From positions 1 to 64,000 of the forward strand of contig JAQIBV010000023.1 of assembly GCA_027858855.1 (NCBI GenBank): DNA of 64,000 nt, written 5' to 3'. This document shows, in pieces, positions 3,499 through 54,209 of the stretch (the stretch's first letter is position 1; the number at the start of each line of letters is the position of its first letter). The stretch comes from Spirochaetota bacterium. GTDB lineage: Bacteria; Spirochaetota; UBA4802; JAFGJZ01. The notes under the pieces were generated by a model that saw only the letters and a program-made list of their open reading frames with translations, was not told the DNA's origin and did not search any database. Both the position numbers and the translations under genes were made by a program.

Positions 3499-3984
3499 AT
3501 GTTCGCTTTTAGAAAAGCTAATTTAGATGATTCAGAAAAACTTACTAATTTAGCCGTGGAATCCGAAAGTCACTGGAACCGTACAGAAGATTTTCTGGAG
3601 AAATTTCGTGAATTATATAAAATAACCAACGAAGCAATTAATCAAAATCTTGTATTTATAATTTCTATAGATAATAAAATGATAGGATTTTATAATGTAT
3701 CTTTTAGCAACGAGATTAAGTCTTTAGAACATTTTTTTTTACATCCTGATTATATCGGAATGGGCTTTGGTAAAGAACTCTGGAAGCATATGATAAAAAA
3801 ATGCAGGGAAAATCATATAAAAAAAATACAGATACTGGCCGATCCGCATGCAAAAGATTTCTATATAAATATGGGAGCTAAATATGTTGGAGAATCCCCA
3901 TCAAAGTTTTCAAGCAATAGCACCGTACCTGAGTTGTTATATGAATTCAAAGGAAGCGACAGAGAGCAATTGGGAGGAATTTAG
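3499..3984 (+). CDS. GNAT-family N-acetyltransferase
   Basis: A 161-residue cytosolic acetyl-CoA-dependent acyltransferase. Motif A is visible around residues 85-100 as HFFLHPDYIGMGFGKELW, with the pyrophosphate-binding Gly-rich loop; motif B is IQILADPHAKDFYINMGA, the usual strand-helix ending in Y/F-x-x-x-GA. The ATG at 3499 is preferred over 3484 because GAGGG precedes it by about nine bases and FAFRKANLDD is a normal family N-terminus. The next small gene begins two bases after its stop codon, with that gene's ribosome site inside this gene's last codons, so the two are translationally coupled. The substrate is unknown. Confidence 0.85.
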   Translation: MFAFRKANLDDSEKLTNLAVESESHWNRTEDFLEKFRELYKITNEAINQNLVFIISIDNKMIGFYNVSFSNEIKSLEHFFLHPDYIGMGFGKELWKHMIKKCRENHIKKIQILADPHAKDFYINMGAKYVGESPSKFSSNSTVPELLYEFKGSDREQLGGI

Positions 3985-3985
3985 A

Positions 3986-4204
3986 ATGCTGCTGACAGAA
4001 ATTGACTCCCGGAACACCTACCCGGATCAGTCCATTCTCAAAGTTAATGAGTCATCGACGATAACACTGGATGAGTACAACTCTATTACCAAGGAAGATG
4101 AATCTGACATGCAGATAATATCTTTTATAGTTTCTTTGGAATTTACAGACAGTTCACTGGTGTATATTGAAGGACTTCCTGAAGATCAGGCCGAAGAACT
4201 TTAG
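3986..4204 (+). CDS. small acidic hypothetical protein
   Basis: A 72-residue soluble protein with many Asp and Glu and no recognised domain. The ATG at 3986 has a strong GGGAGGA site at 3973-3979 overlapping the end of the GNAT gene, which argues for a real, coupled gene. A longer version starting at 3884 would run inside the acetyltransferase in another frame and is not supported. Partner or target of the acetyltransferase is a possibility from context only. Confidence 0.6.
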   Translation: MLLTEIDSRNTYPDQSILKVNESSTITLDEYNSITKEDESDMQIISFIVSLEFTDSSLVYIEGLPEDQAEEL

Positions 4205-4228
4205 CACTAATGTGCTACGCCAGGTCTT

Positions 4229-4262
4229 CCAGCACCACCTCTGAAAAACAGAGTGATGCTGG
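4229..4262. terminator. hairpin with CCAGCACCAC box after the GNAT operon
   Basis: CCAGCA at 4229-4234 pairs with TGCTGG at 4257-4262, and CTCTG with CAGAG inside, closing an A5 loop. It lies between the ends of the plus-strand operon and the minus-strand helicase gene. There is no T-run after it on the plus strand, so it may be a processing stem or a repeat rather than a classical terminator. A similar CCAGCACCAC hairpin occurs at 41822-41857. Confidence 0.4.
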
Positions 4263-4334
4263 ATACCGGAAGATGGGGTTGCCCTTAAATTGTTTTTATC
4301 ACAGGGACTTTATTAAATTTCTAATTTTGGAGAG

Positions 4335-6302
4335 TTATACTATGTCACTGCCCTTTTTTACCGAACGTTTCTTTGCAGCATACGAGCCTTTTTCTGAACC
4401 CTTGCTCGAACTACGTTTTACACTGCTACGTGCATCCGTTGGTTTTTTAGAGCGGGGTTTTGCTTTCGCAGATCCCTTTTCTTCAGCAATCTCTACACGT
4501 ATCTCACGATTCTCTACCGTAACATCTTTCATAGAAGACAATACCAGTTTTTCATCACTCTTTCTAACTTCAAAAAAGGTTAGCTTATCCATGACGTCCA
4601 CTTTACCAATTTCTATGTTACGTGTTCGCGTCTTCTCTTTCACAACACCAATCAGATCCACAACTCCGAAACCATCTTTACGACCAGCATTCATATACAA
4701 CCTGCTGTATTCCTCTTCAGAAGCAACCGGCTTACGCTTATTCGGTGCCGATTCAGAACGTGGAGCTCTTTTTCTGGTTTCATCACGAGGACCTGTTTTT
4801 TCGAAACTTCGACTTCTTGATGAATCGCGACCACTGCCTGCAGCTCTTCCCGCATCTCTGCCACGACCGGAATCACGTCTATTGCCACTATCACGACCAC
4901 GAGACGAATCACGCCCACGGCCGGAATCACGGCCACGTCCAGAATCTCTTCCACGATCCCGACCTCTTCCACTATCAGCACCTCGGGAAGTCGCATTAAT
5001 ATCTTTTGCATTACGATAATATTCAAGAAACTGGTTAAACTCAACAGAGACAAAACGCTTTATTAACTCATCACGTTCTATTCCCGAAAGCTGCTTGATA
5101 ATTGGTTCAATAAAAGAATCAATTTCATCATTCTTCAGTTCCACCTCTTCAACTTTTCGAATCAATTCAAAAAGACGTGTCTGACAGATTTCTCTTCCAC
5201 CAGGAACAAGAGACTTTTTAAAAGATATCTTCATTGAGCGCTCGATCATATCTATCTTGCGCTGTTCACGTGTATTAACAATTGCTACGGCTATACCGGC
5301 TTTACCGGCACGACCGGTACGGCCTGAGCGGTGTGTGTAAACTTCAACGTCATCAGGAAGATTATAATTTATGACATGAGTCAGATCATTTACGTCCAGG
5401 CCGCGCGCGGCAACATCGGTAGCAATAAGAAGTTTAAGATGTTTGTCACGAAATCGTTTCATAACGTGATCACGTTGAACCTGTGTCAACTCTCCATGAA
5501 GAGCATCACAGCTGTATCCGTCTTTTATCAATTTTTCGGCAATTTCCTTTGTCTCATTACGCGTGCGACAAAACACAATTCCGTAAATATGGGGCGCGCT
5601 GTCTACAATGCGTTTAAGGGCAAGATATCTGTCAGGAGCTTTTACCATGTACATCTGGTGCTCTATATTTACATTACCGGCATTCCGTTTTCCCAGAACA
5701 ATCTCTTCCGGGTTTTTCATAAAATTATCTTTTAATGACTCTGGCATTGTGGCCGAGAAAAGAAGCGTCTGTTTGTTTTCAGGTGTTGTTCTTAGAATCG
5801 ATTCCAACTCTTCCCGGAAACCCATCGTCAGCATCTCGTCGGCCTCATCCAGAACCAGCCACTGAATTGAAGAAACATCAAGATACTTACGGCGTAACAT
5901 ATCGTTCAGTCGCCCAGGTGTTCCAACAACTATTTGTGCGCCCCTTCGCAACTCACTTATCTGTGTTTCTATTTTGGCGCCGCCATACACCGGCACAATA
6001 TTTATTTCAGGTCTGTATTTCGCATATGAAAGCATATCCTTCGAAATCTGAATACAAAGCTCGCGTGTTGGTGCAAGTATAAGTGCCTGCACATTTTTAG
6101 CCTTATCTACTTTTTCAAGAATGGGAAGGCCAAAAGCAGCTGTTTTCCCTGTTCCAGTCTGAGCAAGTGCTATCAAATCCCGACTGCTCTCAAGTACAAA
6201 AGGAATAACCTTCTCTTGTACAGGTGTCGGTGTAACAAAACCCAGTTTACTAATTGCATCCATGATTTGTGGCCCAAGGCCGATTGAATCAAATTGTATC
6301 AT
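4335..6302 (-). CDS. deaD: DEAD-box ATP-dependent RNA helicase
   Basis: A 655-residue helicase acting on structured RNA, most like the DeaD/CsdA/DbpA group that assists ribosome assembly and RNA decay. All motifs are present in order: AQTGTGKT (residues 47-54), PTRELCIQI, GTPGRL, LDEADEM, SATMP, ATDVAARGLDV and HRSGRTGRAGK. After the RecA domains comes an Arg/Gly/Asp/Ser repeat tract (RGRDSG units, about residues 445-490), then a DbpA-type RNA-binding fold (YMNAGRKDGFGVVDLIG), then a basic tail rich in Lys/Ser. GGAGA precedes the ATG. The repeat tract is encoded by near-identical codons around 4840-4975 and could vary in length between strains. The family is certain; the exact substrate is not. 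Confidence 0.95.
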   Translation of the reverse strand: MIQFDSIGLGPQIMDAISKLGFVTPTPVQEKVIPFVLESSRDLIALAQTGTGKTAAFGLPILEKVDKAKNVQALILAPTRELCIQISKDMLSYAKYRPEINIVPVYGGAKIETQISELRRGAQIVVGTPGRLNDMLRRKYLDVSSIQWLVLDEADEMLTMGFREELESILRTTPENKQTLLFSATMPESLKDNFMKNPEEIVLGKRNAGNVNIEHQMYMVKAPDRYLALKRIVDSAPHIYGIVFCRTRNETKEIAEKLIKDGYSCDALHGELTQVQRDHVMKRFRDKHLKLLIATDVAARGLDVNDLTHVINYNLPDDVEVYTHRSGRTGRAGKAGIAVAIVNTREQRKIDMIERSMKISFKKSLVPGGREICQTRLFELIRKVEEVELKNDEIDSFIEPIIKQLSGIERDELIKRFVSVEFNQFLEYYRNAKDINATSRGADSGRGRDRGRDSGRGRDSGRGRDSSRGRDSGNRRDSGRGRDAGRAAGSGRDSSRSRSFEKTGPRDETRKRAPRSESAPNKRKPVASEEEYSRLYMNAGRKDGFGVVDLIGVVKEKTRTRNIEIGKVDVMDKLTFFEVRKSDEKLVLSSMKDVTVENREIRVEIAEEKGSAKAKPRSKKPTDARSSVKRSSSKGSEKGSYAAKKRSVKKGSDIV

Positions 6303-6872
6303 TGTTTCTCCAAATGTAGGTCAGACATTTATGCTGACTCTTATATTCGGGCTTTTCCCAAAACTTCTTCAGAATGAAACTGCAAAAAGTGCTCTCCATT
6401 TCTATTGCAAGGAAACTTCTAAATTACGGGTATTTCTAAAAACTCGCTTTAATCAGGTGACCTTCAAAACCCAAATTAGGGCAAATTATAGTCAATTGCT
6501 GATTATCTTAATGAGATTTCAAAAGTTCCCTTGTTAACGTTTCCTCATTGGTTACAGTTTTAAACCAGTTCTGTCATTTCAAATTAACGAAAAATACTGT
6601 TTTAAATAAAAGTAACCATTAGTTTATTAAAATACCCGTTATTAAAACTATGGAACAGCTTCGCAACTCTCGCGTGCTCTTCTGGCAGCCTGAGTGCTTT
6701 ATTCTGCTTAATTTTCTTCTGCTGGTGAAAGGGGCCCTGAACATTGAAATAAAACCGGGGAGACCAGACGGCAGGATAATTTTGGCATTATCAGAAGATC
6801 TGTAATCCTAAATAGTTCTTAGTGCCACTATCAGAGGCGCTATTTTTTTGTAAACACAAATAATTGCGCAAA
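6303..6872. other. gene-free interval with an orphan plus-strand terminator
   Basis: No convincing coding region. Both neighbouring genes are on the minus strand, so this holds the helicase promoter at the left and the 3' flank of the FAH gene at the right. From about 6650 the sequence becomes less AT-rich and shows internal pairing (GATAAT/ATTATC near 6774-6791), ending in the terminator-like hairpin at 6820-6849. A small plus-strand RNA is possible but not shown. Confidence 0.35.
6820..6849 (+). terminator. rho-independent terminator-like hairpin, no upstream gene
   Basis: TAGTGCC (6820-6826) pairs with GGCGCTA (6836-6842) with one G-T pair, followed directly by seven T residues on the plus strand. 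No plus-strand protein gene lies upstream for over 2.5 kb. It is either the end of a small RNA, or a stray hairpin protecting the convergent end of the FAH gene. Confidence 0.5.
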
Positions 6873-7478
6873 TCACTTCACGCTATTCATCAAAACCGGA
6901 AAGCCTTCAATCTCTACACGTACACTGTCTCCACGCTTCATTGGTCCGATTCCCTCGGGGGTGCCGGTTGAAATCAGGTCTCCGGGCAGAAGAGTCATGG
7001 TTTTAGAAATAAACGAGATGCACTGTGAAACAGAAAAGATCATATCCGAAGTATTAGAGTTCTGTTTAATCTCATCATTTAAATACGAGCAGATTCGCAG
7101 ATTATCAGGAGTAATCTCCTCTTTAATCACAATCTGACCTACAGGGCAAAAGGTGTCGAACGATTTGGCCCGTGTCCACTGAATTTCGCGGCTCTGCACA
7201 TCGCGTGCTGTCACGTCATTAACACAGCAGTATCCATACACATATTCAAGAGCTTCACTAATTTCAATGTTTTTACAGTTTCTCGAGATTATGACTCCAA
7301 GCTCTGCCTCATAATCCACCCTCTCGACACTGTTCGGATAAACAATTCCATCACCATTTCTGATTATAGAGCTGGGAGGTTTCATAAATATAATGGGCTC
7401 AGAAGGCAGGGGCATACCAAGTTCAGTTGCATGTTTCCTGTAATTAAGCCCAACACATACTATTTTTGACGGGTTCAT
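6873..7478 (-). CDS. fumarylacetoacetate hydrolase family protein
   Basis: A 201-residue member of the FAH superfamily, which cleaves or decarboxylates beta-diketone acids using a divalent metal. The metal-site residues are visible as YEAELGVII (Glu-x-Glu) and NDVTARDVQ (Asp), with the closing STGTPEGIGPM loop typical of the short HpcE/YcgM/FAHD1-like members. The N-terminal CVGLNYRKHA is also characteristic. GAGAGGAAAG precedes the ATG at 7478. The length fits the single-domain branch, some of which are oxaloacetate decarboxylases or acylpyruvases. The specific substrate cannot be chosen. The neighbour upstream (7516-7896) is unrelated. Confidence 0.9.
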   Translation of the reverse strand: MNPSKIVCVGLNYRKHATELGMPLPSEPIIFMKPPSSIIRNGDGIVYPNSVERVDYEAELGVIISRNCKNIEISEALEYVYGYCCVNDVTARDVQSREIQWTRAKSFDTFCPVGQIVIKEEITPDNLRICSYLNDEIKQNSNTSDMIFSVSQCISFISKTMTLLPGDLISTGTPEGIGPMKRGDSVRVEIEGFPVLMNSVK

Positions 7479-7515
7479 ACTTTCCTCTCAATAAATACAG
7501 GAATATAGAGATAAA

Positions 7516-7896
7516 TCAGGTAGGAAACTCCCCATTCGAAAGAAAAGAGTCTATATCCTCTGAAGAGTACTCTTTATCCGGATCATATCCGGGCATTAAC
7601 ATTAATAACAGTTTAATCAATTTATCGCTATCATTGCAGTTATTGTCTTCATTTTTGCTAGCATCAGACGAAAGACCCTCTTCAAGTACAGAACGATTCA
7701 GAAGTTTAAGTAAACGTTCGCTTTGGCTACTCTTCTCTTCTTCAAATTCCAAAGCAAGTTGAAGCATCGACTCCATGAAGAGGTCTTCGACATCGTGCGC
7801 ATCTTCCTCGTAAAAATCACGCAGCTTCCGCTCTCGAAACTCCATAATGTTTACTATCTTCATGTTTTTTACAGAACTGCTTTTTTTAGAAGCCAT
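7516..7896 (-). CDS. small acidic hypothetical protein
   Basis: About 126 residues, strongly acidic in the C-terminal half and with a short basic N-terminus (MASKKSSSVK). No recognised domain; probably helical around EEDAHDVEDLFMESML. The ATG at 7896 is preceded by AGGG; an in-frame TTG at 7938 is also possible, so the start is uncertain. It is 37 bases upstream of the FAH gene on the same strand and may be cotranscribed. No function is proposed. Confidence 0.6.
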   Translation of the reverse strand: MASKKSSSVKNMKIVNIMEFRERKLRDFYEEDAHDVEDLFMESMLQLALEFEEEKSSQSERLLKLLNRSVLEEGLSSDASKNEDNNCNDSDKLIKLLLMLMPGYDPDKEYSSEDIDSFLSNGEFPT

Positions 7897-8000
7897 AGTC
7901 TTATTTTCCCTGAAATAGTCTCCTTCTAAATATAGCAATAACTTCTGACAATATCAATGACAAAAAGACTTATGTTGCAACACTACCCAAAAATCACGCT

Positions 8001-9374
8001 CTATTCAATTAAACCTGCATAACTGTAATAGAGTGCCATCAGATTCATCTTCTGCTGCAACAGGGATATCTCTTCAGATGCGATATTATTTCTAGTGTTA
8101 ATGATATAGCTCAAATCAAGACGTGCAGCCTGATACTTACGATTCTCTGTCAACAGTTGTGAACGAAGAGCCCGGATGTTTTTCTCTTTATTTAATATAA
8201 TATTTTTAGTTTTCTGAGCTTCAACCTGTATGGATCTTATCTCTGTCTCATAATTCAGCACGGCAGCACGCAGATCCTCCTGCATTTTCAGCAGTTCTAA
8301 AGCTGCTATCTCATATGTAGCTTCAGCGCTATTGTTGCCAAACGAGTGGGTTACCTCTACGCCAACTTTGTAGTCGGTTTTATCATAACTAACCAAGCCC
8401 GAGAAATTCTCATCATTACCCCACTGTGTAATTGATGCCACAGCATCCACACTCGGTCGCAATTTGTTTGCAGCAGTATCACGACTCAGCTTCAACCGGC
8501 TAACAAGCAGATCTACCCTCTGAGCCGAGACTGTAGAATTAAAGGGACGATACTCAAAATCATGTTTCTTTATGCGGTTATATTCTGTATCAAAATGTGC
8601 AACTACCGGCCGAATGCTATCAGCACCAACCTGAACTGCGATCTCCTCTTTTATCTTCATTTCATCAATCAGACTCTGTTCTTTCTTTTGCCTGAAAGAG
8701 AGCAGTGAAGAGTAAGCTTTCTGTACTTCATCATTTTCCGCAAGACCCGATTTTTGTTTACTGATCATCTGATTGTAAATAGTCCACGCATTTGCAATAC
8801 CCTTCTGATTGATTGCACTGATCTTCGAATACATAATCCACTGATTATAAAGTAGAGTATAATAACGAAACAGGGCATTACTTGTAATCATTGTCTGAAC
8901 TTTTTCTATCTCATAGCTGATTTTCGCATCCTCTTCGGCATACTTATCGACGCTTCCCAGAAAATTGTACAGAAGAGGCTGACGCACGCCAAGTGTCACG
9001 GAGGGCTGATGTAAAACCTCGCTATTATCACGGTTAATTACCGAACGAGTATATCCCGTTGAGCCATAGAGTTCAGTACCCGTAGTTATAAATCTTTTCG
9101 ATAATCCGGCCTCTCCGGTTATACCCGAATTAGTCCCGGTCGAATCTGAAAGATCATTATTAAAATAATTGATCGAGCCATTCATTTTAACATCCGAAAC
9201 TCCACGTGCTTTCTGTACTGATCTTTTAGCTATCTCTTCATTCAATCTGCTCTTAACAATTTCCGGAAGATTATTTTTTACATAAGATGAATATGTTTCA
9301 TAATCCAGAACTATTTCAGCCTGAAGAGCAAGACCCTGAATCAGAAACAACAATAGCAATAGACTTTTTTTCAT
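8001..9374 (-). CDS. TolC-like outer membrane efflux protein
   Basis: A 457-residue exported protein: signal peptide MKKSLLLLLFLIQGLALQA, then long heptad-rich helices and strand segments arranged as two repeats, as in TolC/OprM channels (for example SVTLGVRQPLLYNFLGS, and the second half with VGVEVTHSFGNNSAEATYEIA). Such proteins form a trimeric tunnel across the outer membrane and periplasm for type I secretion or RND efflux. No inner-membrane pump or adaptor gene is next to it, so its partner is elsewhere. GGAG stands eight bases before the ATG. The family call rests on overall pattern, not on a short motif. Confidence 0.8.
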   Translation of the reverse strand: MKKSLLLLLFLIQGLALQAEIVLDYETYSSYVKNNLPEIVKSRLNEEIAKRSVQKARGVSDVKMNGSINYFNNDLSDSTGTNSGITGEAGLSKRFITTGTELYGSTGYTRSVINRDNSEVLHQPSVTLGVRQPLLYNFLGSVDKYAEEDAKISYEIEKVQTMITSNALFRYYTLLYNQWIMYSKISAINQKGIANAWTIYNQMISKQKSGLAENDEVQKAYSSLLSFRQKKEQSLIDEMKIKEEIAVQVGADSIRPVVAHFDTEYNRIKKHDFEYRPFNSTVSAQRVDLLVSRLKLSRDTAANKLRPSVDAVASITQWGNDENFSGLVSYDKTDYKVGVEVTHSFGNNSAEATYEIAALELLKMQEDLRAAVLNYETEIRSIQVEAQKTKNIILNKEKNIRALRSQLLTENRKYQAARLDLSYIINTRNNIASEEISLLQQKMNLMALYYSYAGLIE

Positions 9375-43073: not shown

Positions 43074-44066
43074 ATGAAATTAATAAAAATTGCCCTGATA
43101 CTGATACTTACAACCATCCCTGTCGCATCAGCCATTGCGGATGCCAGTGATGAATGGTACACTGTAGATAAAGTAATTGCTCTTGTAAATGATGACCCGA
43201 TTCTTTACAGCGAGCTGTCAAAACGCGTTGAGTTGAACAAAAAAAGAAAAAACGTCTCTAAAAAAGACCGTAAAAACCTGACCTTTTCAACACTTGACTC
43301 CTTTATAAATGAAAAACTGCTTCACCAGGCAGCCAATCGTGAATACATTCTTGTGAGTGAGGAAAAGGTTGATAGCAAAATTAAAGAGTTAATGGAATAT
43401 ACAGGCTCTAAAAACCTGGAGCAATTCAAAAAAGCTGTAGAAAAAAACGAGAACATCCCCTATGAGGCTTACCGTGAAGAGCTGAAAAATCAGCTTATTA
43501 TTGAACAGATCATGGTCTATGCAATGACCTACACTCCACCGACCGAAGCTGAAGCCAAGGCTTGGTACAACAAAAATAAAAGCCAACTTCTGCAACTGAG
43601 ATTTCAGCATATTCTAATCACTCCCAAGGGCGATTCATTCTCTGCCGAAAAGGCCGCCAATGAGCAGATTTCACAGTTGCGAGAAAAAGCTCTTTCTGGT
43701 GAATCGTTCGCTCGATTAGCACGGCAACACTCTGAAGACAAGGCTTCTGCACGAGCCGACGGATTTATAGACTGGATATCTCCTGGACAACTAGATCAGC
43801 GTTTCGCCTATGTTGTCTATAACATGAAAAAGCGGGGAGAGATATCCCAGGTTTTCAAATCATCATTTGGTTACCACATCGTCAAATTTTACGGCCGACG
43901 ATACATGCCGTTTGAAGAAATACGGAACCGTATATTTCAGATGATTTCTCAGGAGGCGCGGATGAAACAGTTTCAGGAATGGGTAAAGTCTGAACGTGAA
44001 AAATCTCACATCAGCGTATATGTCGATGGTTTTGATAAATATCGCGCATCTTTGGAGAAAAAATGA
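43074..44066 (+). CDS. SurA/PpiC-like peptidyl-prolyl isomerase
   Basis: A 330-residue exported chaperone. The signal peptide is MKLIKIALILILTTIPVASA, cleaved before IADASD or nearby. A SurA-type N-domain (VDKVIALVNDDPILYSELSKR) is followed by one parvulin domain (LRFQHILITPKGDSF, GGFIDWISPGQ-like, SFGYHIVKFYGRR). It assists outer-membrane protein folding. It overlaps the next gene by four bases. AGAG lies before the ATG. Confidence 0.92.
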   Translation: MKLIKIALILILTTIPVASAIADASDEWYTVDKVIALVNDDPILYSELSKRVELNKKRKNVSKKDRKNLTFSTLDSFINEKLLHQAANREYILVSEEKVDSKIKELMEYTGSKNLEQFKKAVEKNENIPYEAYREELKNQLIIEQIMVYAMTYTPPTEAEAKAWYNKNKSQLLQLRFQHILITPKGDSFSAEKAANEQISQLREKALSGESFARLARQHSEDKASARADGFIDWISPGQLDQRFAYVVYNMKKRGEISQVFKSSFGYHIVKFYGRRYMPFEEIRNRIFQMISQEARMKQFQEWVKSEREKSHISVYVDGFDKYRASLEKK

Positions 44067-45544
44067 ATAACGCCTTTCTTCTGTACCTGAAAGATGATCT
44101 TAACGACCAGGATCTTCTATTTAACAACTCTGCAATCCCGGCTATTCTTCAGCAAAAATTCGAAGAATCCTTCTCAGGAACTCCTGTAATCATATCTGTA
44201 CCCTCATCATACTCCGGTAATCTGACAACTTTTGAAAACTGTTTCACAAGAGAGAGTAATGAAACCACAAACTGGAAGAATTTAAATAACAGGTTTGAAT
44301 ACGACAATTACATACGAATTAATGCAGACGCCCCTTTTGCCGACATGACAATAATCGACGAAATGCTTGCTGTTCATACAAAATATGCTGCTGAATACAC
44401 CTACTCTGAAAACATTCCTGATGGTTTCTGTTGTGACATTATATCGTGCGAACTTATAAAATCTTTACCAGAACCCGAAGACGAAGCCAAAGTTTTACCC
44501 GTGGAAAAGGTCATTAAAGATAACATTAACCAGTTCGATGTCGAACTCTTTTACAAGGATCCAGATATTAGGCCGCTTCGCCTTGCATTTTTAAATGGAG
44601 ACGAACGGGAACGGATCATCATGCAAAACATATTTTCTGCTGCCGCTAAAATTCCGCTCTATTCAGAGATTCAACAGATAATTAATTCTTCTCCACAGGT
44701 TCTTTACACCTCGCCCTCTTATATCGAAGTTGAGATTTCGCCTATGGTTAATTCGACAACGATCTATTCGGCACAACAGTTGACCAACCCCGATCGCACA
44801 GAGATGTCACCTGAGCTTTTTGATTCAATACTGAAGGGCGCCTCTTCATATAATACACCGTTCGCTCTTACTCTTGGTGGGTGGGGTGAACCTCTGAAAC
44901 ACAGCGCCTTTTATTCACTGTTTGAAAAAGCTCTAAAAGAACCGTCAATCTCACTTCTGCTTCTGGAATCAGACGGTATAGCCCTTGACTCGAACTTCAT
45001 ACAGTTTATTCAAAACCATGATGTCTCTAAACTACGTGTTATTGTGGAGTGTAACGGTCATTCAAAAGAAACCTATACAGCTATTCATGGAACGGATAAT
45101 TTTTCTGTAGTTGAACAGAACATTGTCGCCCTTCAGGATATTCTAAAAGACAGACTCTACATCCAGATCATGAAAATAAACGAAACAGAGCCCTTTCTTG
45201 ACAGCTTCTATGACTTCTGGGAAACGAAGAACGTTCAGATTATTTTACAAAAACAGAACACCTATTGCGGTGCTCTTGAAGATCGTCGTTATTACGACCT
45301 TACCCCGCTTAAACGGATCCCCTGTTGGCATCTGCAGCGCGACCTGGTAATCCTCAGCAACGGAGATGTTCCCTTCTGCAAACAGGATCCTTCTGCCAAA
45401 TTTTCCTCATTATCTGTCAGAAATATGCCGATTCAGGAAATATGGGATGAACGTAAACCCATGTTTCTGGAAAACTATGCAAATAAATTTCCATCGAAAC
45501 CCGATTGCAAGACCTGTGACGAGTGGTTTACCTTCAATCTCTGA
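44063..45544 (+). CDS. spiro-SPASM-type protein, degenerate radical SAM
   Basis: A 493-residue three-part protein. Residues 1-150 resemble an SpsF/cytidylyltransferase-like nucleotide fold (YIRINADAPFADMTIIDEM). Residues 215-400 look like a radical SAM barrel: EISPMVNSTTIYSAQ stands where the CxxxCxxC loop should be, with Val229, Thr233 and Ser236 in the three Cys places, and LGGWGEP (271-277) matches the SAM-binding GGE motif. The C-terminal 75 residues are a SPASM-like cluster domain with Cys421, 439, 482 and 485. Loss of the three Cys implies no classical SAM cleavage. It overlaps the SurA-like gene and precedes the sugar genes. Confidence 0.88.
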   Translation: MNNAFLLYLKDDLNDQDLLFNNSAIPAILQQKFEESFSGTPVIISVPSSYSGNLTTFENCFTRESNETTNWKNLNNRFEYDNYIRINADAPFADMTIIDEMLAVHTKYAAEYTYSENIPDGFCCDIISCELIKSLPEPEDEAKVLPVEKVIKDNINQFDVELFYKDPDIRPLRLAFLNGDERERIIMQNIFSAAAKIPLYSEIQQIINSSPQVLYTSPSYIEVEISPMVNSTTIYSAQQLTNPDRTEMSPELFDSILKGASSYNTPFALTLGGWGEPLKHSAFYSLFEKALKEPSISLLLLESDGIALDSNFIQFIQNHDVSKLRVIVECNGHSKETYTAIHGTDNFSVVEQNIVALQDILKDRLYIQIMKINETEPFLDSFYDFWETKNVQIILQKQNTYCGALEDRRYYDLTPLKRIPCWHLQRDLVILSNGDVPFCKQDPSAKFSSLSVRNMPIQEIWDERKPMFLENYANKFPSKPDCKTCDEWFTFNL

Positions 45545-45607: not shown

Positions 45608-46369
45608 ATGACTAATTCCGATTCCCAAACTAATATTGTAGCTATTATTCAGGCTCGACAGAATTCAAAGCGACTCTTTGAGAAGTGTTTCAAAGAACTG
45701 AGCGGGAAAGCGGTGCTTACTCATATTATTGAACGGGCACAAGCCATCGAAGGAATCTCTCATGTAATTGTTGCTACGGGAGACGCAAAGAAAAACCAGG
45801 ATATAATCAAACTTACCGAAGACAGTGGTGCAACTACATTTGCTGGTTCGGAATCTAATGTTCTTGAACGTTATTACATGGCATCACAACTGTTTCCATG
45901 TGACTACATTATCAGAATAACCGGGGATAACCCCTTTACTGACGTTGACTATGCATCGATGGCCGTTCAGCACGCCATCGAAAGCAGCGCCGACCTCTCT
46001 TCTATCACTAATATTCCATTAGGAACAGCAGTCGAACTTATCAAACGTGAGGCTCTCAACAAGTGTTACCATAATGCAAACCACACTCACCACCTTGAAC
46101 ACGTAACTCCCTATATAAAGGAAAACCCTCAACTCTTCACCATAAGCCGAAAACCGGTCTATATCTATAACAACATTCCTGACCTTCGTCTGACCATCGA
46201 CACCGAAGAAGATTTTCAACTTGCTTCTGAACTGTACTCTGCTCTCTATACCGAACAGTCGTTTTTTTCACTTCATCAGATATTCAATTATCTTCGACTG
46301 TATCCCGAAATGGTACATATTAACAGCGCCATTAAGCAACGCCCCATGACCCACTTCGAAAATGGTTGA
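45608..46369 (+). CDS. spsF: SpsF-like cytidylyltransferase
   Basis: A 253-residue nucleotidyltransferase. It matches SpsF/CMP-sugar type enzymes: VAIIQARQNSKRLFEKCFKEL, the Q-x-R nucleotide loop, then IIRITGDNPFTDVDYASMAV. These activate sugar acids for surface polysaccharide or flagellin modification. The next gene begins eight bases before its end. The substrate sugar is not known. Confidence 0.93.
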   Translation: MTNSDSQTNIVAIIQARQNSKRLFEKCFKELSGKAVLTHIIERAQAIEGISHVIVATGDAKKNQDIIKLTEDSGATTFAGSESNVLERYYMASQLFPCDYIIRITGDNPFTDVDYASMAVQHAIESSADLSSITNIPLGTAVELIKREALNKCYHNANHTHHLEHVTPYIKENPQLFTISRKPVYIYNNIPDLRLTIDTEEDFQLASELYSALYTEQSFFSLHQIFNYLRLYPEMVHINSAIKQRPMTHFENG

Positions 46370-47246
46370 TTTTGTAATTACCACACGCTGCGGTTCAGAC
46401 TATGGCTCCGGTCATTTCTGGCGAATGACAACTCTGTTAAACCTTCTTCTTAAAGCTAACTACTCTGTTCATCTTTACAGCGACCTTTTTCCCGATAACT
46501 TTCCGGACTCTTTGCGTCCATTTACTTCGAGAAATCTTCCTGCTGCCCGTCATCTGATACACGACATGCGGGACTCCGATGAAACAGGCGCCCAAAAGCT
46601 AAGCCATCAGTTTGGAACTATTACAACCATAGACGACGCTGGTTTTACATCTCTTTATAAACAATCGATCAAACTTCTTCCTTCAGACACAGAAGTGCTG
46701 CTGCCGACTAACGGCTCATTTCCTTTTCTGTATGGTTATCATTTCCACCAAGCTGTCTGTATTCTTGATTCAATCCCAGAAAAAAATATCGACCTTCTTG
46801 TTTACACAGGATTCAACAGTCGTGACTATCCGATAAGCTTTGAACAATTACAGAAATCATACACCATTGCCTGGTTTAACGGTACAAGCTGCACCATAAA
46901 CGGAAAAACCGATCGAAGCTACTCCTTTCACGATCTGCTATTTCGCTCAAAACTATTTCTTTCACACTTCGGACTATCACTGTACGAGGCGGCTTTGGCA
47001 GGGGCGCATGTAGTTGCGCTTAACCCATCCCCGTACCACTCCGCATTAGCCGATAATGAAAAGAGAATCGCCCTTATAAATACCGGCACATTTGATGCGG
47101 ATAAAGAGAAAGCCTCGAAACTGATTCATCAACTTGTAGGAAGTAATAGCTCTTCAGATTTTGAAGCACCCGATCTTTCACCTGAACATCTACATCAAAA
47201 AGTAGCAACACAGCATTCCCTATTTTTAGAGAAGCTGCTTTCTTAA
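46362..47246 (+). CDS. SpsG-like glycosyltransferase or sugar hydrolase
   Basis: A 294-residue GT-B-like protein. The N-terminal loop CGSDYGSGHFWRMTTLL is the GxGHxxR motif of the SpsG/PseG family (nucleotide-sugar hydrolases and transferases), with the C-terminal SHFGLSLYEAALAGAHVVAL nucleotide loop. It is coupled to spsF (8-base overlap) and to the SPASM protein before it. Together they form a likely sugar-modification operon. Confidence 0.85.
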   Translation: MVDFVITTRCGSDYGSGHFWRMTTLLNLLLKANYSVHLYSDLFPDNFPDSLRPFTSRNLPAARHLIHDMRDSDETGAQKLSHQFGTITTIDDAGFTSLYKQSIKLLPSDTEVLLPTNGSFPFLYGYHFHQAVCILDSIPEKNIDLLVYTGFNSRDYPISFEQLQKSYTIAWFNGTSCTINGKTDRSYSFHDLLFRSKLFLSHFGLSLYEAALAGAHVVALNPSPYHSALADNEKRIALINTGTFDADKEKASKLIHQLVGSNSSSDFEAPDLSPEHLHQKVATQHSLFLEKLLS

Positions 47247-50695: not shown

Positions 50696-51988
50696 ATGAG
50701 CTGTTCAGTTGTTATTGGTGCGCAATGGGGTGATGAAGGAAAGGCAAAGATGATTGACTTCTTTTCTCAGAAAGCGGATATCATTGTCCGTTATCAGGGA
50801 GGAGCCAACGCCGGACATACTGTAGTCGCAAACGGACAGAAACATATTTTTCATCTTATTCCATCAGGAATCCTTCATCCCGGAAAAATTTGTGTTCTGG
50901 GCAACGGAGTAGTTCTTGACCCAATACAGCTTGTATCGGAAATGGACAATCTGATATCTCAGTCTATTGATATAAGCTATCGCCTGCTGATTTCCGACGC
51001 TGCTCACCTGATTTTACCCTACCACAAAGCTCTTGACGGTGCACTCGAAGAACTTCGCAGCAACAAAATTGGTACCACAGGCCGAGGTATTGGCCCCTGT
51101 TATGCGGATAAATGCCTGCGTACCGGAATCCGAGTGGGTGACATCTTTCTTGACTCCAAGACTCTTGAAAAAAAAGTGCGTCAAACCCTTGAGGTAAAAA
51201 ACCTGCAATTGGTTAAGATGCATAAAAAGGATCCATTTTCTATAGAAGAGATCATGGAGATCATTCTGGCCTTTAAAAAACGAATTCAAAAAATGATTAT
51301 AAACACCGGATACTACCTCAATGAAGAGGCAAAAAAAAACAAAACCATCATTCTTGAAGGTGCTCAGGGTTTTGGGCTGGATATTGATCACGGAACCTAC
51401 CCCTTCGTTACCTCTTCCAACCCGACAATCGGTGGAGCCCTGCTTGGTTCAGGTCTTAACCATTCTGTAATTGATAAAGTTATCGGTATTTCAAAGGCCT
51501 ATATAACCCGTGTTGGCGAAGGCCCGTTTCCAACCGAAGATTTTGGAGACGATGGTAACCTTCTGCGTGACAAAGGGGGAGAGTATGGATCGACAACCGG
51601 ACGTCCAAGACGTTGCGGCTGGTTTGATGTGGAACTGATGAAACAGACCGCGCGCATCTGTGGTCTGACAGATATTACCCTAACCAAGATTGATGTTCTT
51701 TCAGGCTTCGAAAAGATAAAAGTAGCAGTCGGATATGAATACAAGGGCAAAAAGATCGACATGTTTCCGTCGTATCTGCTTGACGACATTAAACCAGTAT
51801 ATGAAGAGCTGGATGGCTGGACAGAGGACATCTCTAAATGCAAAACCTACGACGAACTGCCGCAGAATACACGTGATTACATAGCTTTTCTTGAAAAAGC
51901 AGTAGGCGTTCCAATGTCTATAATTTCTGTCGGCCCCGATCGTGAGAATACAATCGTTCGTGATACGTGGAAAAAAACTAAACTTTAA
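50696..51988 (+). CDS. purA: adenylosuccinate synthetase
   Basis: A 430-residue enzyme of AMP synthesis, making adenylosuccinate from IMP, Asp and GTP. The N-terminal GAQWGDEGKAKMIDFF is the GTP loop with the catalytic Asp, then HTVVANGQKHIFHLIPSGI, TGRGIGPCYADK and the C-terminal TGRPRRCGWFD. AGAGG is before the ATG. Its last 11 bases overlap the end of the convergent 51978-54209 gene. Confidence 0.97.
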   Translation: MSCSVVIGAQWGDEGKAKMIDFFSQKADIIVRYQGGANAGHTVVANGQKHIFHLIPSGILHPGKICVLGNGVVLDPIQLVSEMDNLISQSIDISYRLLISDAAHLILPYHKALDGALEELRSNKIGTTGRGIGPCYADKCLRTGIRVGDIFLDSKTLEKKVRQTLEVKNLQLVKMHKKDPFSIEEIMEIILAFKKRIQKMIINTGYYLNEEAKKNKTIILEGAQGFGLDIDHGTYPFVTSSNPTIGGALLGSGLNHSVIDKVIGISKAYITRVGEGPFPTEDFGDDGNLLRDKGGEYGSTTGRPRRCGWFDVELMKQTARICGLTDITLTKIDVLSGFEKIKVAVGYEYKGKKIDMFPSYLLDDIKPVYEELDGWTEDISKCKTYDELPQNTRDYIAFLEKAVGVPMSIISVGPDRENTIVRDTWKKTKL

Positions 51989-54209
51989 GCTTCATGATAC
52001 TATTTTCATTTATATCTCCGGTTGTCTGACAACCGGACAGTATCATACACTTGCGAAGCTCTTCCTTTACCTGATTTAGATAAAACTCAACACCGTACTC
52101 TTCCATTCCAACAGCGGCAACACAGACTGGTCGCCCTATGGAGACAGCATCGGCTCCAAATGCCAATGCCTTAAAGACATCCACCCCGCTACGAAAGCCT
52201 CCATCGGCAATTATTGTAATCTTCCCCTTTACAGCTCTGCAAATTTCAGGCAATACATCCATCACCCCGGGCATCTGATCAAGAACACGTCCGCCATGAT
52301 TCGAAACAATTATTGTATCGGCTTCTGCGGCAACGGCGTCCTCTGCATCACGTACCGACATAATCCCTTTTAAAATAAAGGGTAACTTTGTCAGAGAAAT
52401 AACCTGACTCAGGTTCTCTACACCTCTTGCCGTTGTTGTCTGATCACGTAAAGTCATGGTCTTTAACACAATAGCATCAATATCCATACCAATAGCAACA
52501 GCGCCGGCCTCTTCTGCTTCACGAATACGGTTAGTTAACTGCGAAATCTCTTTTCTTGGTTTGAAAATCGGTATCCCGCCTTCTGCTTCACGTATAGCCT
52601 GCAACCCCACTCGATACTTTTCAGGAGAGGCTCCGTCACCAACCATGGCAAGTACTCCGCTTCTCCTAGCACCACCAACTACTGCACGATTATACTGCAA
52701 CTCTTCAATTGCACCATTCATGTTGGTCACTGTACCGGTTATAGGTGATACCAAAACAGGCATCTGCATTTTTTTTCCATACAGGGTAATTGACATATCA
52801 GGATCATGAACATCATGAATAAGCCTTGTAACAATTTTATACTCTGATAGGGAACGGATGTTACGTCTGAACGATTCGCCTGTACCCACAGCGCCCATAC
52901 CTGGAATAGAGGATGTACACTGCTCACCATTACAATCCTTGCAGCAAAGGCAAATTTTTCCAAATTTTTCGCGAGCACGGGCACGTATTATTTCAATAGA
53001 AACTTCGTTCTCGGCTGCGATCTTAATAGTCAGAGTATTACGAGCCTTCTGTACTATTGCCTCCGCCTCTTCAAGCGTGTCGGCTGTGGCAATAATATGC
53101 CCCGCCTTTTCAACATTGGATCTGGGTTTTACAACCCTGTCGCCGGGCGACACATTCAAAACTATATCATTCACACCCTTAATTGCACCCGCTTCAACCA
53201 GATTATCGATAGACTTAATAATCCCAGGCTCTGTAATAATTGCCCTCTCAATAGATACCTTGTTTAAAACCGGCTCCAGATTACCAGGTTCCTGCCCCAA
53301 CGAAATTTCAATAGCGGCCTTCATGAGATCGACACCAGTGGCATAGGGGAATGTATGTGTCGACATAAACCCGCCCGAAAGACGTGCGGCAAGCTCACCG
53401 ATCTTTACTCCATCAGGAGTCACCTTAATATCACCCTTGGCAAATCCATGATTTATTCCCAAAGCCTTTATGCCAAGCTTCATAACCCGTCGCGCCTCTT
53501 CTATAACATCCGGGTCAAGATGAGAGGGCATGGTGTGACCCTTCTCAATAAAATAGGGAAGGTCTTCTATAATACGGTCAGCAATACCGGTAAAGGTAAC
53601 CTCACCATCAAAAACAACCGCATCTATAGAAAGTTCGGGCCCTATCATGTATTTTTCCATTATAAGCTCGCCGGATGGTGAGGCATTTTTAGCAGCATGA
53701 AAAGCATCAGAGATATCATTCATATCATCAATAAAACGGACGCCACGCGCGCCCATGTTATCAGAAGGTTTAATTACCAGTGGAAGCCCTAGCTTTTTAC
53801 ATGCGGTCTTAGCTTCTATAAGCGACCAGACAGAGCAAAAGTCCGGCGAAGGTACACCCTGATTTTTAAACCTGGTTCGCATCTTTATCTTGTTTGTTGC
53901 AGCTTCCGCGTCTTCAAACTTTATACCGGGAAGACCCAAAGCATTCGCAACGGCAGCCACTGTCATTGAAGCATCCGTACCGCAGGTAACAACTCCGCTG
54001 ATAGGTGTCAGCTCATGCTGTCTTTTCGCAATACGCACTGAACCCTCAACATCACGGGTACTCATAACAAGCGGAATATCAGCATACTGTAATCCCAGAA
54101 CATCAGGATTGTAATCGGTCACAATAACCAGAAGGCCCATCTCTTTGCCCTTTTTAATTAACGGAAGCTGAAGCAACCCACCACCGATTACCAGTATTGA
54201 TTTTTTCAT
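51978..54209 (-). CDS. ATP-grasp ligase fused to FMN-dependent oxidoreductase
   Basis: A 743-residue two-domain protein. Residues 1-390 are an ATP-grasp ligase: N-terminal Rossmann (VIGGGLLQLPLIKKG), LVIKPSDNMGARGV, and the metal-binding GELAARLSGG. Residues 410-743 are an FMN alpha-hydroxy-acid oxidase-type barrel with the catalytic His loop IIVSNHGGRVLD and the FMN-phosphate loop IADGGFRSGVDVF, preceded by CLCCKDCNGEQC (Cys420, 422, 423, 426, 431), a likely metal or cluster site. The fusion may link peptide-bond formation with oxidation. The substrate is unknown. It converges with purA. Confidence 0.9.
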   Translation of the reverse strand: MKKSILVIGGGLLQLPLIKKGKEMGLLVIVTDYNPDVLGLQYADIPLVMSTRDVEGSVRIAKRQHELTPISGVVTCGTDASMTVAAVANALGLPGIKFEDAEAATNKIKMRTRFKNQGVPSPDFCSVWSLIEAKTACKKLGLPLVIKPSDNMGARGVRFIDDMNDISDAFHAAKNASPSGELIMEKYMIGPELSIDAVVFDGEVTFTGIADRIIEDLPYFIEKGHTMPSHLDPDVIEEARRVMKLGIKALGINHGFAKGDIKVTPDGVKIGELAARLSGGFMSTHTFPYATGVDLMKAAIEISLGQEPGNLEPVLNKVSIERAIITEPGIIKSIDNLVEAGAIKGVNDIVLNVSPGDRVVKPRSNVEKAGHIIATADTLEEAEAIVQKARNTLTIKIAAENEVSIEIIRARAREKFGKICLCCKDCNGEQCTSSIPGMGAVGTGESFRRNIRSLSEYKIVTRLIHDVHDPDMSITLYGKKMQMPVLVSPITGTVTNMNGAIEELQYNRAVVGGARRSGVLAMVGDGASPEKYRVGLQAIREAEGGIPIFKPRKEISQLTNRIREAEEAGAVAIGMDIDAIVLKTMTLRDQTTTARGVENLSQVISLTKLPFILKGIMSVRDAEDAVAAEADTIIVSNHGGRVLDQMPGVMDVLPEICRAVKGKITIIADGGFRSGVDVFKALAFGADAVSIGRPVCVAAVGMEEYGVEFYLNQVKEELRKCMILSGCQTTGDINENSIMKLKV

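Follow-up and report, generated by a model that had tools for sequence, protein, structure and literature searches.

Repeated loss of the SAM-cluster cysteines in spiroSPASM, a conserved spirochaete protein encoded beside SpsF

The window analysed here, a stretch of 64,000 nucleotides from a Spirochaetota bacterium, encodes a protein that keeps the frame of a radical SAM enzyme without the three cysteines of its SAM-binding cluster. Its gene lies in the arrangement SurA, spiroSPASM, SpsF, SpsG that is seen across the order of this organism, and the ATG start overlaps the stop codon of the upstream SurA-like gene.

43074..44066, + strand: SurA/PpiC-type periplasmic chaperone-isomerase (conserved; precedes spiroSPASM in 52 of 76 testable loci)
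44063..45544, + strand: spiroSPASM (TIGR04321) gene, 493 aa, SAM-cluster cysteines missing
45608..46369, + strand: SpsF-like CMP-sugar synthetase (CTP_transf_3), conserved neighbour, CTP loop intact (PF02348, 113.7 bits)
46362..47246, + strand: SpsG/PseG-like protein with a GxGHxxR-type N-terminus (most loci of the order have a homologue in synteny)

The SpsF neighbour is a putative maker of a CMP-sugar for flagella. A distant relative of the SpsG/PseG-like protein matches PseG (TIGR03590) with a score below the cut-off.

The window protein scores 380.6 bits against the NCBIfam model TIGR04321 (cut-off 250) over residues 66-492, in agreement with the family named by an earlier sequence-only reading of this DNA, and it contains the whole architecture of that family: an SpsF-like N-terminus, a barrel and a C-terminal four-cysteine domain. 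Functional radical SAM enzymes (PF04055) carry a CxxxCxxC motif, for which the window protein has V229, T233 and S236. In the alignment of same-order relatives these residues occupy the CxxxCxxC columns of an ungapped loop, as exemplified by the pair L001 SYIEVEISPMVNSTTIYSAQQLT and L035 SYLEIELTGRCDLDCLFCYRNTL, so that the ligands have been lost at exact spacing, as the same reading had claimed. Radical_SAM PF04055 gives no Pfam match in the window protein, versus 66 matching proteins among 81 family members.

44708..45262, + strand: radical-SAM-type barrel, residues 216-400 (BtrN 4m7t, Z 22.6 over model residues 214-493)
44747..44749, + strand: Val229, replacing cluster cysteine 1 (alignment columns)
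44759..44761, + strand: Thr233, replacing cluster cysteine 2 (alignment columns)
44765..44767, + strand: Tyr235, kept aromatic of CX3CX(phi)C at the adenine-stacking position (Y/F in 39 of 46 lost members)
44768..44770, + strand: Ser236, replacing cluster cysteine 3 (alignment columns)
44876..44893, + strand: GGWGEP, residues 272-277, kept GGE-type SAM-binding motif (site conservation across the family)
44966..44977, + strand: ESDG, residues 302-305, kept; family motif ETxG (site conservation across the family)

The remainder of the radical SAM partial TIM-barrel is present, with the GGE-type motif at G275-E276-P277, within the GGWGEP already recognised by the sequence-only reading, and the ribose motif at E302/S303/G305. 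No substitute cysteines that could rebuild the site were found in the barrel of the window protein, which has one cysteine only, and a relocated CxxxCxxC was found in none of the lost-type loops. A sequencing or assembly error was rejected, as the congeneric genome G146 (62% identical) and the sister-genus genomes G087 and G219 are also devoid of the cysteines.

Of the sampled genomes, 302 of 392 in the phylum and 44 of 46 in the order of the window organism encode a TIGR04321 member. Among 136 distinct members, collected from the proteins of the sampled phylum genomes and a scan of GTDB genomes, 90 retain all three CxxxCxxC cysteines (intact) and 46 do not (lost), figures that are not a population estimate because GTDB genomes are unevenly sampled and many are MAGs. 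The sequence-only reading had left room for the cysteines being lost in all members; the intact relatives, which it had itself named as grounds for refutation, overturn that version, yet the finding stands in another form, as a loss that has recurred. Within the order, every sampled family outside that of the window organism (f1) keeps the cysteines, and all four f1 genomes are without them. The careful tree places these four in one clade (support 100/98), which implies a single loss in this GTDB family; two separate losses within f1, suggested by an open quick tree, were rejected on the same grouping. Across the phylum, a tree computed with the loop columns left out gives 14 parsimony changes, at least 8 of which are forced by well-supported branches, and 15 maximal lost clades result if loss is assumed to be irreversible. 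As the tree search was a quick one that left 43 forks open, eight is the safe figure. The motif is present in other radical SAM families, and for this reason the state changes are taken to be losses. The pattern is thus one of at least eight independent losses in related spirochaetes, and lost-type proteins are encoded by, among others, Treponema bryantii XBD1002 and one MAG each of Turneriella and Brevinema.

The rest of the protein has not followed the cysteines. When the sequences are weighted, lost members prove to be conserved at the same sites as intact ones, the exceptions being the three cysteines and, less so, D433. Thus G275-E276-P277, E302/T303/G305, Y338, Q368, Q396 and K397 are kept, and position 235 is aromatic (Y/F) in 39 of the 46 lost members. 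In SkfB, the GGE motif binds the methionine end of SAM and the phi residue of CX3CX(phi)C binds the adenine (PMC6231123). Pairwise dN/dS in the barrel is 0.05-0.18 for lost pairs versus 0.06-0.26 for intact pairs, which, together with the retention of the other conserved barrel sites, indicates purifying selection and not decay. Given that the loss is repeated and the rest of the protein is kept, the lasting job of the protein probably does not need the radical.

A structure prediction, which the sequence-only reading had proposed, yields an AF2 model with a mean pLDDT of 94.6, consisting of a BtrN-like barrel and a cytidylyltransferase-like N-domain. Model residues 214-493 superimpose on BtrN (4m7t) with Z 22.6 and an rmsd of 2.6 over 233 residues, followed by SuiB, SkfB, DesII, MoaA, BlsE and viperin, and a profile search with the window protein also retrieves BtrN (6e-19) and the Leptospira cytidylyltransferase 6oew (3e-9). 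PF13186 (SPASM) passes its cut-off over residues 421-486 (27.8 versus 21.5 bits).

45263..45541, + strand: twitch (half-SPASM) domain, residues 401-493 (PF13186 match; BtrN spacing)
45323..45325, + strand: Cys421, predicted auxiliary-cluster ligand 1 (invariant, 136/136)
45377..45379, + strand: Cys439, predicted auxiliary-cluster ligand 2 (invariant, 136/136)
45506..45508, + strand: Cys482, predicted auxiliary-cluster ligand 3 (invariant, 136/136)
45515..45517, + strand: Cys485, predicted auxiliary-cluster ligand 4 (invariant, 136/136)

Equivalents of these four cysteines are present in all 136 members, intact and lost alike. They are separated by gaps of 18, 43 and 3 residues in the window protein versus 18, 45 and 3 in the aligned BtrN, whose first auxiliary ligand lies beyond the printed alignment and is placed on general background. 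The BtrN auxiliary cluster has four cysteine ligands (PMC9012708), whereas the full SPASM motif comprises seven cysteines for two clusters, CX9-15GX4C-gap-CX2CX5CX3C-gap-C (PMC6231123), of which pattern the window protein falls short, as C421, C439, C482 and C485 are its only conserved cysteines. The C-terminal domain is therefore a twitch and not a full SPASM domain, by a four-cysteine spacing known from sequence. The SPASM-like cysteine domain of the earlier reading survives as a PF13186 match with one C-terminal cluster site kept, although its name was slightly off.

44063..44707, + strand: N-terminal degenerate cytidylyltransferase-like (pseudo-SpsF) domain, residues 1-215 (hhalign to SpsF 99.3%; 6oew Z 20.7; no CTP loop)

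The kinship of the N-terminus with the neighbouring SpsF fold, proposed earlier from the sequence, is well borne out: hhalign aligns the domain with the adjacent SpsF over 213 columns (probability 99.3%, E 2.7e-20), and residues 1-222 match 6oew with Z 20.7. The CTP loop R..S.RL..K, expected of an active CTP_transf_3 cytidylyltransferase, is however found in 0 of 136 spiroSPASM N-domains versus 59 of 60 SpsF neighbours, so that lost members are devoid of both catalytic motifs, CxxxCxxC and the CTP loop. Every member, the intact ones included, has this SpsF-like domain, and since the loop is absent from all of them, the arm is old and degenerate family-wide. The notion that the window protein newly gained a nucleotide-binding-like arm is hence rejected.

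The gene surroundings point to sugar metabolism. In 47 of 50 intact and 18 of 20 lost loci, an SpsF gene follows spiroSPASM within 4.5 kb. The link with the sugar enzymes made in the sequence-only reading is supported; the role as a scaffold or sensor that it had attached to this link is possible. In Spirochaetales, the operon runs from spiroSPASM through a protein without a Pfam or NCBIfam match, SpsF, an SpsG-methyltransferase fusion, an ATP-grasp ligase, an amidase and a Germane-domain protein to FlaA (PF04620, 262.7 bits). A flagellin gene is located upstream in genome G364, and the operon there stands between flagellin and FlaA. This cluster (L179:1-11704, G364:C129), flanked by flagellin and FlaA and holding spiroSPASM, SpsF, the SpsG-methyltransferase-like fusion, ATP-grasp, amidase-like and Germane-like genes, is a candidate for a complete flagellar glycan operon.

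Three further observations concern these surroundings. The protein between spiroSPASM and SpsF in Spirochaetales (L168:9295-10296 and homologues, 17 loci) is conserved, about 325 aa long and without a match in Pfam or NCBIfam; by eye it is GT-A-like (WDD), and it is possibly a flagellar glycosyltransferase. The window itself encodes, at 51978-54209 on the - strand, an ATP-grasp/LAL_C2 ligase fused to an FMN-dependent alpha-hydroxy-acid dehydrogenase (PF01070), whose N-terminal half aligns without gaps over 376 aa, at 47% identity, with the ATP-grasp of the Spirochaetales spiroSPASM-FlaA operon; parts of the same pathway may accordingly be split up in the genome of the window organism. A 1.14-Mb genome retains, despite its reduction, a lost-type spiroSPASM with Y, S and R at the cysteine sites, and its size and gene content make it look like a treponeme of the pallidum type.

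L181 (G056:C1), 3736-5412 and 6328-8913: lost-type spiroSPASM and an 862-aa SpsF-containing protein

Flagellin occurs in 70 of 70 sampled spiroSPASM-positive genomes. The 80 spiroSPASM-negative genomes (at least 90% complete) comprise 42 without flagellin, 36 of family f39 and 2 others. The 42 belong to f49, to g96 of f45 and to g157 and g161 of f50, and within f45 and f50 the relatives of the negative lineages have both spiroSPASM and flagellin; these counts are phylogenetically dependent and represent about three independent flagellum losses (f49; f45 g96; f50 g157/g161). Family f39, which looks Borreliaceae-like, has small genomes of 1-2 Mb with flagellin and without spiroSPASM (e.g. G076 and G101), implying that spiroSPASM is dispensable for flagella as such. 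CTP_transf_3 gave no match at E 1e-10 in the nine f39 members tested, which suggests that this family lost the whole sugar pathway. Outside the Borrelia-like f39, spiroSPASM occurs almost exactly where flagellin does, and its flagellar role is well supported by association, although not proven.

We propose, with a probability of about 0.5, that the lost-type spiroSPASM assists SpsF in the synthesis of a flagellar glycan, as a partner that is both a pseudo-radical-SAM and a pseudo-cytidylyltransferase protein. On this reading, the SAM-binding [4Fe-4S] cluster was lost once at the base of the family of the window organism, and selection kept the SAM/nucleoside pocket, the SpsF-like N-domain and the BtrN-like twitch cluster. 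The resulting protein should be unable to start 5'-deoxyadenosyl radical chemistry. It would work with the neighbouring, putatively active SpsF, probably via the degenerate cytidylyltransferase domain, which may pair with SpsF or hold the CMP-sugar, and the two would make or hand on a sugar that modifies the periplasmic flagella; the barrel and auxiliary cluster may serve to bind the substrate or to support the structure. The intact relatives would, beyond this, use the SAM/nucleoside pocket for a BtrN-like radical reaction on a sugar, either an oxidation or an epimerisation; their pseudo-cytidylyltransferase arm would position a substrate linked to a nucleotide or pair with SpsF, and only this latter part would be left in lost forms.

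Several other readings have to be weighed against this partnership. That a former enzyme is turning into a pseudogene might be thought from the catalytic motifs missing in both domains, but dN/dS is about 0.1 throughout, the full length is retained and the twitch cysteines are invariant; the loss has moreover been repeated independently, with the lost-type gene kept even in the 1.14-Mb genome. Decay is effectively refuted by the dN/dS values. Rather unlikely in our view, the protein may still be a non-radical enzyme, in which the pocket and the twitch [4Fe-4S] cluster act on a nucleotide sugar through a two-electron redox or Lewis-acid step, and in which SAM or some other nucleotide may still be bound. 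GEP, ETxG, Y338, Q368, Q396, K397 and the adenine-stacking aromatic are nearly equally conserved in lost and intact members, a conservation of catalytic type without a cluster. These residues may however be kept for binding only, and a four-cysteine auxiliary cluster at the BtrN spacing leaves no open iron site, that of BtrN being fully ligated and of low potential (PMC9012708).

The invariance of this sole metal site left in lost members, together with the constant SpsF adjacency, would also suit an iron-sulfur or redox sensor, or SpsF regulator, whose twitch cluster reads out redox or iron status to switch the sugar pathway. We regard this as improbable, since the constraint is just as strong on barrel residues that have nothing to do with the cluster and the same arrangement exists in intact members, for which the precedent is an electron-acceptor role (PMC9012708). 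It is less plausible still that radical activity is supplied in trans, with a second radical SAM protein replacing the lost half and spiroSPASM serving as its auxiliary subunit. The genome of the window organism does encode another radical SAM protein with an intact CxxxCxxC (G000:C21, 42.5 bits against the family), but this score is far under the 250-bit cut-off, such matches occur in most control genomes, and neither the gene-family clusters of the lost loci nor the two loci that were read showed a recognisable extra radical SAM gene next to spsF.

A bolder reading can be put forward, albeit only as a tentative and somewhat doubtful proposal. The ancestral, essential job of the family may be independent of radical SAM chemistry, with a twitch protein and its dead cytidylyltransferase arm using the former SAM pocket to help make the flagellar sugar without radicals; the radical step would then be a dispensable addition that was dropped at least 8 times and probably 14-15 times.

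No paper was found in the open-access literature under 'spiro-SPASM', 'TIGR04321' or 'pseudo-rSAM', nor one joining SpsF, flagellin, Treponema and glycosylation; that some members are without the motif may already be mentioned in the curators' description of TIGR04321. As far as tested, four points are new: the parallel losses under a constraint that is otherwise unchanged, the assignment as a twitch, the absence of the CTP loop throughout the family and the co-occurrence with flagellin.

Compared with known systems, the window protein shares score, full-length architecture and phylum-wide orthology with TIGR04321, although its clade is without the CxxxCxxC that two thirds of the sampled members have. 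SpsF/KdsB-type cytidylyltransferases (PF02348; 6oew) have fold and homology in common with spiroSPASM residues 1-222 and differ by their CTP-binding loop. BtrN, a twitch radical SAM dehydrogenase of butirosin synthesis, is the best profile and structure match, with the same four auxiliary cysteines, but it has the SAM-cluster cysteines and is without an SpsF-like N-terminal domain. The kind as such is already recognised in TIGR04347, by name a haloarchaeal pseudo-SAM/SPASM protein with a pseudo radical SAM domain, which is unrelated at the family level (an intact spiroSPASM relative scores 18.6 bits versus a cut-off of 525) and otherwise compared by name only. While pseudo-radical-SAM proteins are known as isolated families, spiroSPASM is one orthologous family with both states, and its at least eight independent switches make the role of a cluster-less radical SAM fold testable with natural orthologues. 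It is also nominated as a conserved, uncharacterised protein of the flagella-linked sugar pathway of spirochaetes, the reduced 1.14-Mb genome included.
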